The position numbers and the translations under genes are program-made. The notes under the pieces were generated by a model that saw nothing but the letters and a program-made list of their open reading frames with translations, was not told the origin of the DNA and ran no database searches. 64,000 nucleotides of DNA from Thioalkalivibrio versutus. Its GTDB lineage: Bacteria; Pseudomonadota; Gammaproteobacteria; Ectothiorhodospirales; Ectothiorhodospiraceae. The DNA is taken from positions 62,001 through 126,000 of the forward strand of contig NZ_MVAR01000018.1 of the NCBI RefSeq assembly GCF_001999325.1. The letters run 5' to 3'. Positions 1 to 20,101 of the stretch are shown here, one piece after another (the first letter of the stretch is position 1; each line of letters opens with the position of its first letter).

Positions 1-28
1 GCTCCGCGTCTCCTGGGGCGCCCATCGG

Positions 29-90
29 GTGTAAAGCTTTCCGACGGGGTTTCGGGCCGGTTTCCCGAAAAATGTCGGAATGGTTTACAC
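29..90. promoter_or_regulatory. Nested inverted repeat, likely enhancer site of the exosortase target gene
   Basis: Two 17-base arms (29-45 and 74-90, starting GTGTAAAGC and ending TTTACAC) are inverted copies with 15 of 17 positions matching. A second pair (TTTCGGG at 50-56, CCCGAAA at 64-70) is nested almost concentrically. The block ends about 64 bases before the GG element of a sigma-54 promoter, the usual position of an enhancer-binding-protein site. Exosortase-type genomes often carry a PrsK/PrsR two-component pair in which PrsR is a sigma-54 activator. Assigning this site to PrsR is inference. No T-run follows, so it is not a terminator. Confidence 0.6.
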
Positions 91-153
91 GAGGTCCTTC
101 GCGGCGAATCGGGTTTGCGAAAAACTCGCGATCAAACAGGTCTTTAGCGGCTT

Positions 154-169
154 TGGCGCGTGTCTTGCT
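154..169 (+). promoter_or_regulatory. Sigma-54 (RpoN) -24/-12 promoter
   Basis: TGGCGCG-N4-TTGCT matches the sigma-54 consensus TGGCACG-N4-TTGCW, with GG at 155-156 and GC at 167-168 separated by exactly ten bases. Transcription would begin near 180, about 58 bases before the start codon of the secreted protein. The inverted repeat at 29-90 would be the activator site. Confidence 0.75.
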
Positions 170-237
170 TCGTAGTTGCTCGAGAGGGCGAAAGGCGCCC
201 TGAGCGGTCAACAGGCCGGGAGCCGGAGGTGAGTGTG

Positions 238-1128
238 ATGCGCAAGTGGTGGAGTAAACAGGTGGTGGTGCTAGCGGGCGTAATGCTCGCAGGCTCGGTG
301 GCGAACGCGGCCATTATCGAGCTTCCGGACGTCGACGAGACCTATGACGGGATCCCGGTCGCCATTCAGTACAACGATTTCTATTCTTACTCCGGCTCGT
401 TGCTGAACCAGTGGGGTTTCCTGTCCAATGACCAGTTTACCGGGCAGGGCACCGGCACGCTGGATCTGATTGTGGGCACGGGTGCTGGTGGCGCGGATAA
501 CCAGGGTATCGGGCCCGGCGGCAGCTACAATTTCGAGGACCCCATGCCCTTGCCGGGTGGCGGTACGACCGACTTCACTGGTGACTGGGGGCTGGGCACC
601 CAGGCCAACGGGCCTGTGCTGGTGGACAACCTCCTGGCGTACCTGGATGCGATTAACCCGGGGGCCACAATCCCCACGTTCATCTTCGATCACAACCAGA
701 CAGGCTCAGCCCCCGATCTGTGGGTCCAGGCCGAGGTCTTTATCTACGACCCCGTCACCGGGGAACGCGTGGCTCGCTGGATCTTTGACGACGGCAATGG
801 CGGCCCGGTTCTCTCGCCCGGCGAGGTCGAGGTGATTGGCGATTCGGGCGAGGTGTACGAGGCCGATGCCAACAAGGGAAGCGGCAAGCTGGACTACATC
901 GTGTTTGCCCCGACCATGGATCTCGGCCTGTTCTCCGGCGAAGGCTATCTGTTCGGGATCGATTTCTTTATGGACGACCTGAACAATGGCTTCGAGGAGC
1001 TTTATCTCAGCGGTCGGTTCGCCACCACGACCGAGGTTCCGCTCCCTGGGCCGGTCTGGTTGATCGGGCTTGGGCTCGTGATGCTGGGGGCCTTCCGCCG
1101 CTATCGGCATTCGGCCCCGGGCCTGTAG
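238..1128 (+). CDS. VPLPA-CTERM sorting domain protein (exosortase substrate)
   Basis: A secreted protein of 296 residues. It starts with a basic/hydrophobic signal peptide ending near ANA (about residue 24) and ends with VPLPGPVWL (from residue 267), a hydrophobic helix and an arginine-rich tail (RRYR). That tripartite tail is the VPLPA variant of PEP-CTERM signals, which exosortases cleave after export so the protein reaches the cell surface or extracellular matrix. The middle is rich in Gly, Asp and aromatic residues and matches no family I recognise. The chosen ATG has GGAGG eight bases upstream (225-229); an in-frame start further upstream would begin inside the sigma-54 promoter. The gene stands alone between that promoter and a strong terminator. 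The cognate exosortase is not in this window. Confidence 0.85.
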   Translation: MRKWWSKQVVVLAGVMLAGSVANAAIIELPDVDETYDGIPVAIQYNDFYSYSGSLLNQWGFLSNDQFTGQGTGTLDLIVGTGAGGADNQGIGPGGSYNFEDPMPLPGGGTTDFTGDWGLGTQANGPVLVDNLLAYLDAINPGATIPTFIFDHNQTGSAPDLWVQAEVFIYDPVTGERVARWIFDDGNGGPVLSPGEVEVIGDSGEVYEADANKGSGKLDYIVFAPTMDLGLFSGEGYLFGIDFFMDDLNNGFEELYLSGRFATTTEVPLPGPVWLIGLGLVMLGAFRRYRHSAPGL

Positions 1129-17403: not shown

Positions 17404-19302
<1,899 letters not shown>

Positions 19303-19345
19303 TGGTGCGAAAAACCACACCAAATGATGCGTTCGGGGAGACCGC

Positions 19346-20101
19346 GTGACCGATACCCGCTTCCTTGAGGATTTCTACCGCCTTCGCGACGGTCAGCTGG
19401 TCGTAACCCCGGAGCAGGGCAGCGACTTCGCCAAGACCCTCGCGGGCGACTTCAATCCGATCCACGATGCCGACAACCGGCGCTTCTGTGTCCCGGGGGA
19501 TCTACTGTTTGCCCTGGTGCTGGACACCTACGGCGCGAGCGCGGACATGCTCTTCCGTTTCACCGGCATGGTGGGAGGCAATGTGCCCCTGATCTTTCCG
19601 GAAAACCCGGGCGCGGCCTTTGCCATTACCGACGAGAGTGGCAAGAGCGTAATCGAGGTCGAGCGTTCGGGGGCGGTGATCGACGAGCCCAGTGCGATCG
19701 GATCCCTGATCCGCAGCTATGTCGGCTTTTCCGGGCAGAATTTCCCGCACGTGCTGGTGCCGCTGATGGAGGAGCACGGCGTGATGGTGAACCCCAAGCG
19801 CCCACTGGTGATGTATGAGCGCATGGGTTTTCATCTGCCCGAGCCGCTGGCAGCCAGCGCCGGGGTGCCGGAGCCCCGTCTGAAGGATGCGGTGATGACG
19901 GTCAATGGCAAGCGCGGAGAGATTCGCCTGGACTACGAACTGGTCATCGACCAGTCGGTGGTTGCCGACGGCAGCAAGCACCTCGTGCTGAGCGGGCTGC
20001 GCGCGTTCGATGCCGCCGATGTCGAGCGGCTCGTCGCCGACTACGAAAGCTGGAAGGCCGCCTACTTCAATCAGCAGGGCGGGGCCCACGCCCAGGCCTG
20101 A
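19346..20101 (+). CDS. DUF3581-type conserved protein, hotdog-like
   Basis: 251 residues. The N-terminal part carries AGDFNPIHDADNRRFCVPGD, which resembles the active-site loop of MaoC-type hotdog hydratases (GDFNPIH), and the whole protein fits the gammaproteobacterial family I recall as DUF3581. Function unknown; a thioester or lipid substrate is only a guess from the loop. GTG start at 19346 with GGGGAGA upstream. It follows recQ by 43 bases and may share its transcript. Confidence 0.7.
   Translation: MTDTRFLEDFYRLRDGQLVVTPEQGSDFAKTLAGDFNPIHDADNRRFCVPGDLLFALVLDTYGASADMLFRFTGMVGGNVPLIFPENPGAAFAITDESGKSVIEVERSGAVIDEPSAIGSLIRSYVGFSGQNFPHVLVPLMEEHGVMVNPKRPLVMYERMGFHLPEPLAASAGVPEPRLKDAVMTVNGKRGEIRLDYELVIDQSVVADGSKHLVLSGLRAFDAADVERLVADYESWKAAYFNQQGGAHAQA

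Follow-up and report, generated by a model that had tools for sequence, protein, structure and literature searches.

The window, the whole 64-kb stretch of DNA that was analysed (G000:C18:62001-126000, in a genome of 2.83 Mb), opens with two inverted arms that lie ahead of a sigma-54-type promoter and of a gene for a predicted exosortase substrate. The question raised by this locus is what the arms do. A related layout was described by Haft et al. in 2006 in the upstream regions of 99 of 167 PEP-CTERM genes from Proteobacteria (PMC1569441). It consists of a 17-nt motif 1, which ends in TTTACA and is sometimes repeated, a spacer of 62.8±10.6 nt (range 32-92 nt) and a sigma-54 motif 2, located on average 71 nt from the start codon. 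In that study, PrsR was predicted by phylogenetic profiling to bind motif 1, and a few additional sites before other genes were noted (PMC1569441). Since the motif in the window is this motif 1, the idea of an operator is not new. Here, we describe the element, which is very probably a PrsK/PrsR-dependent sigma-54 promoter of the XrtA/PEP-CTERM system, and the geometry that it appears to share with its counterparts in Gammaproteobacteria.

The features of the locus are collected in Table 1. The promoter TGGCGCG-N4-TTGCT has, as the preliminary description stated, the exact GG-N10-GC spacing (GG at 155-156, GC at 167-168), and it is the sole exact match within the 64 kb. The 17-nt motif 1, TGTCGGAATGGTTTACA, occupies positions 73-89, with TTTACA at its end. 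A spacer of 64 nt separates the box from TGGCGCGTGTCTTGCT, and a leader of 68 nt connects the promoter to the start codon. The arrangement thus resembles that of Haft et al. in the motif ending in TTTACA (compared by its description, the logo being a figure), in the spacer (~63 nt there), in the -24/-12 promoter, in the leader (~71 nt there), in the PEP-CTERM-like gene and in the presence of PrsR and PrsK in the genome. It differs in having two boxes, in inverted orientation. A PEP-CTERM gene with a promoter of this type is the RpoN1-dependent pepA of Aquincola tertiaricarbonis, which has a predicted enhancer upstream; its -24/-12 promoter was mapped experimentally (PMC9850573), while that of the window is predicted.

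Table 1 Features of the locus, in window coordinates.
Feature	Position	Strand	Remarks
Left arm: putative second PrsR box (motif 1), opposite orientation, GTCGGAAAGCTTTACAC	29..45	-	Kept in orthologues ALMg11 (16/17) and AKL19 (13/17)
Palindrome TTTCGGG-N7-CCCGAAA in the loop of the inverted repeat, probably incidental	50..70	.	Loop 50% and 39% identical in orthologues
Right arm: putative promoter-proximal PrsR box (Haft motif 1), predicted main enhancer, GTCGGAATGGTTTACAC	74..90	+	Motif as in PMC1569441
Degenerate IHF-like site AAACAGGTCTTTA, 2 mismatches to WATCAANNNNTTR	134..146	+	Register -20 from TGG, as in other PrsR promoters
Predicted sigma-54 -24/-12 promoter TGGCGCGTGTCTTGCT (Haft motif 2)	154..169	+	
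Expected transcription start, ~12 nt past the -12 GC	178..182	+	Inferred from sigma-54 promoter geometry
Predicted secreted 296-aa exosortase substrate; PEP-CTERM-like tail (VPLPGP, TM segment, RRYR; ~1018-1107)	238..1128	+	Orthologues in Thioalkalivibrio sp. AKL19, ALJ24 and ALMg11

The downstream open reading frame starts with an ATG preceded by the Shine-Dalgarno sequence GGAGGTGA at 225-232, and the protein ends in ...TEVPLPGPVWLIGLGLVMLGAFRRYRHSAPGL. It is 86%, 91% and 70% identical to its orthologues in AKL19, ALMg11 and ALJ24, respectively, which makes a Thioalkalivibrio the most likely source of the DNA. Its tail has the VPxPG-TM-RR layout and gave partial C-terminal matches to PEP-CTERM families (6.6e-7), none of which reached the cut-off. 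The tail had been described as a VPLPA-type sorting signal. A sorting-signal-like tail is indeed present, but its motif is VPLPG, and the only exosortase in the genome is XrtA (362 bits, cut-off 208). The VPLPA-specific XrtD (TIGR04152) scored 159.5 bits against a cut-off of 400, and a VPLPA-CTERM/XrtD system was rejected on these grounds. By its motif and by the exosortase available, the sorting signal is probably an XrtA-type PEP-CTERM variant.

The arms themselves, GTGTAAAGCTTTCCGAC and GTCGGAATGGTTTACAC, are complementary at 15 of 17 positions and 28 nt apart, in agreement with the preliminary description, and the second palindrome that it placed between them is also found, with halves at 50-56 and 64-70. 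When window positions 1-237 were shuffled 400 times with dinucleotides preserved, an inverted repeat of equal quality (17 nt, loop of at most 60 nt) arose only once. In ALMg11 and AKL19 the arms are conserved (76-94% identity) and their 28-nt separation is unchanged, while the loop has diverged. The inner palindrome was therefore rejected as a conserved element. Judged by motif content, the arms are two opposed copies of the single box GTCGG-N5-TTTACA and form no undivided operator. The operator unit is, by the same comparison, one arm (GTCNG-N5-TTTACA) and not the pair, most sites having a single box, and doubling in inverted orientation is peculiar to the window gene and its orthologues, as a local variant. 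The proposal that the arms are the operator of the activator thus holds in part: an operator of PrsK/PrsR type is supported by the encoded PrsR, PrsK and RpoN and by the PEP-CTERM genes that the motif marks, but its unit is half of what was proposed.

Beyond the orthologues of the window gene, an inverted pair was seen in one of 368 other genomes of the class (G182), in an uncertain context, and the pair was rejected as a general operator. Direct second copies of the box (0-1 mismatch) are commoner than inverted ones, occurring at 4 of 28 sites within 120 nt. The pair in G182 (L095:1501-1549) has a 17-nt loop and lies 12 nt past a gene on the same strand. A sigma-54-like site that precedes a gene with a VPLPP tail is about 250 nt away; the pair could alternatively be a terminator.

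Exosortase genomes had been said often to encode the PrsK/PrsR pair, and a PrsR homologue was sought in this genome. It was found with 717 bits (cut-off 502.6), along with PrsK (734 bits, cut-off 300) and RpoN (489 bits, cut-off 277). Contig C44 carries PrsR and PrsK together with an EpsB-type glycosyltransferase and an XrtA-type export protein. RpoN is located on C14, and XrtA on C1, near XrtA chain-length, tyrosine-kinase and FemAB genes. The composite motif, box plus promoter, has four matches in the genome and its reversed pattern has none. Three of the matches are real, at the window gene, on C16 and on C1, and the fourth is a spurious one from the left arm. The strict motif at C16:24855-24957 lies upstream of a PEP-CTERM gene with a VPTPGS signal. 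At C1:93537-93643, next to the XrtA chain-length gene, the motif precedes two genes, the first encoding a PilZ-domain protein and the second an exosortase-system acyltransferase. The sequence-level conditions that had been named as refuting thus do not overturn the proposal: PrsR is encoded, and the suggested genome search succeeded for boxes with a promoter, found ahead of a further PEP-CTERM gene and of the PilZ/acyltransferase unit, but the inverted pair is not repeated at these sites. Motif-1-like matches at C1:39034 and on C33 and C36 lacked a good sigma-54 site at the required distance, and a simple pattern test revealed no convincing PEP-CTERM reading frame at the TIGR02595 matches on C38, C22 and C15.

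The unit of the PilZ gene and the TIGR03694 acyltransferase gene (C1:93537-95124; L043:7711-9125) is divergent from the XrtA chain-length gene, and its PilZ promoter is found again in relatives (L062, L071, L073, L074). At the end of the same contig, there are two floc-PepA-like paralogous PEP-CTERM genes (L043:16070-17388 and 18340-19513) with the near-consensus sigma-54 promoters TGGCACGGCATCTGC and TGGCACGTTGTCTGC. A variant box, GTCGA-N5-TTTACA, is found 126 and 125 nt upstream, with another copy further up each. The first paralogue scored 43.8 bits with the floc_PepA profile (cut-off 80), and the second, which is cut by the contig end, gave no match to it.

Across 47 genomes of the family, the composite motif occurs in 22 of the 28 that encode PrsR and in 4 of the 19 lacking it (Fisher p=1.2e-4, uncorrected for the kinship of these related genomes); the six remaining PrsR-positive relatives lack the strict motif. 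A scan of the class with spacings of 50-80 nt yielded 75 sites in 54 of 369 gammaproteobacterial genomes and one match for the control, counts that are lower bounds because strict patterns were used. The reading frame downstream of these sites has a PEP-CTERM-like tail in 41 cases, runs off the retrieved sequence in 9 and was classed as other in 25, the last group being called by a crude automatic method. The motif thus serves, as anticipated, as a search tool for the regulon, marking further PEP-CTERM genes in this genome and in its relatives. Among the family and class sites that were checked, PilZ proteins are recurrent targets other than PEP-CTERM proteins (L031, L062, L071, L073, L074). 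In two genomes, a GGDEF diguanylate cyclase follows a PrsR-type promoter (L119:1676-3088(+) and L121). Such promoters also precede members of a protein family with the motif SPGYWGN, at L057:581-1354(-), L081:1758-2528(+) and L107:1709-2329(+). The members at L081 and L107 had no Pfam or NCBIfam match, and two direct boxes are found at each of the loci L057 and L081.

The distance between box and promoter falls into distinct classes. Of the 75 sites, 7 have spacers of 51-53 nt, 49 of 60-65 nt and 18 of 72-76 nt, with one site at 69 nt; spacers of 54-59, 66-68 and 77-80 nt were absent from this set. The modes are one helical turn apart, and the window promoter belongs to the 64-nt class. With one site counted per genome the periodicity persists (n=54, R=0.77), and jittering the spacers by ±5 nt gave no equally periodic set in 10,000 trials. 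In 19 family sites found with a looser motif, 3 of which are common to the class scan, the spacers were 63-65 and 74-76 nt only. Such trimodal spacing fits an activator and a polymerase that would meet, always in the same rotational orientation, by way of a short DNA loop.

The spacers also contain sites that resemble the binding site of IHF, the consensus of which is WATCAANNNNTTR. At most one mismatch to this sequence was found in 42 of 75 spacers, compared with about 8 in Markov resamplings. Matches of this quality concentrate at two registers relative to TGG, -19/-20 on the plus strand and -31 to -34 on the minus strand; one or the other is occupied at 34 of 75 sites, where about 0.5 would be expected, the registers having been picked from the same data. 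Several sites of the 74-nt class, including the PilZ site, have no good IHF match. In the window and in two orthologues, the best match lies at the same plus-strand register. It has two mismatches, and a role of IHF at the window promoter is therefore only suggested.

The arms could instead be read at the level of RNA, as a hairpin or terminator of the upstream deacetylase-family gene or as a structure at the 5' end of the transcript. A gene on the same strand does end upstream of them, before the window begins, and a long nested stem with a minimum free energy of -42.8 kcal/mol is possible in the transcript. Folding is, however, unremarkable against shuffles (z=-1.47), which led to the rejection of this reading. 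The arms are followed by no T-run and are located upstream of the predicted start. Furthermore, most sites across the class have a single arm, with which a stem is impossible, and the changes in orthologues preserve the letters of the motif and not the base pairing. An RNA element is thus highly improbable. Even more improbable is a divergent enhancer, in which the inverted boxes would serve promoters on both strands. There is a minus-strand GG-N10-GC beyond the left arm, but its best version, CGGTATCGTCTGTGCC, is poor and lacks TTGC, and the upstream gene is on the same strand. With a poor -12 element and no divergent gene, this reading was rejected.

An unlikely alternative, though less so than these two, is that the arms serve another sigma-54 activator or a repressor and that PrsR acts at other sites. 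The genome has 12 NtrC-like matches of at least 250 bits, PrsR included, which leaves about 11 other candidates, and PrsR is a predicted binder of the box. Nevertheless, the motif tracks PrsR across the family and marks genes of the XrtA system, and phylogenetic profiling in 13 species led to its assignment to PrsR (PMC1569441).

The PrsK/PrsR-dependent promoter would operate as follows. PrsR, an enhancer-binding protein of NtrC type, would be phosphorylated by PrsK and would bind the promoter-proximal box, the centre of which is ~98 nt upstream of the expected start. At the window gene, it would also occupy the opposed box, centred ~143 nt upstream. PrsR would keep to a single helical face with respect to the promoter. 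With the intervening DNA bent, in many relatives apparently by IHF, it would contact the RNA polymerase-sigma-54 complex at the promoter, and its hydrolysis of ATP would drive formation of the open complex. The product would be a secreted surface protein, the tail of which would be processed by XrtA, the one exosortase of the genome. Its gene would be regulated together with another PEP-CTERM gene and with the PilZ/acyltransferase unit beside exopolysaccharide genes. Binding by PrsR, phosphorylation by PrsK, the action of IHF, looping and processing by XrtA are steps that we infer from sequence.

The proposed arrangement resembles NtrC-type enhancers such as those of glnALG and Klebsiella nifLA, where two upstream sites at about -90/-140 activate sigma-54 polymerase by looping. 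At nifLA, activation by NtrC depends on the face of the helix (PMC7408454). The box and the activator are different, and for PrsR the phasing shows in the classes of spacing that occur naturally in different genomes. Haft et al. give the mean and standard deviation of the spacer, without helical phasing, IHF-like registers or PilZ and GGDEF targets (PMC1569441). We found no published report of helical phasing or IHF registers in PrsR promoters, most subscription journals lying outside the search.

Taken at the scale of the class, we lean towards the view that PrsR promoters are phase-locked enhancers, in which, across Gammaproteobacteria, the distance from box to promoter comes in steps of one helical turn (~52, 63 and 74 nt) and IHF, placed at either of two fixed registers, bends the DNA. 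The PEP-CTERM surface programme would then depend on DNA architecture, and the regulon would extend to the c-di-GMP proteins PilZ and GGDEF. The spacing classes and the fixed IHF-like registers make the looping model directly testable. For the exosortase system, the sites provide a searchable candidate consensus of the regulon, GTCNG-N5-TTTACA followed at 52, 63 or 74 nt by TGG-N8-YTGC, and they would tie the sorting of surface proteins to c-di-GMP proteins and exopolysaccharide.
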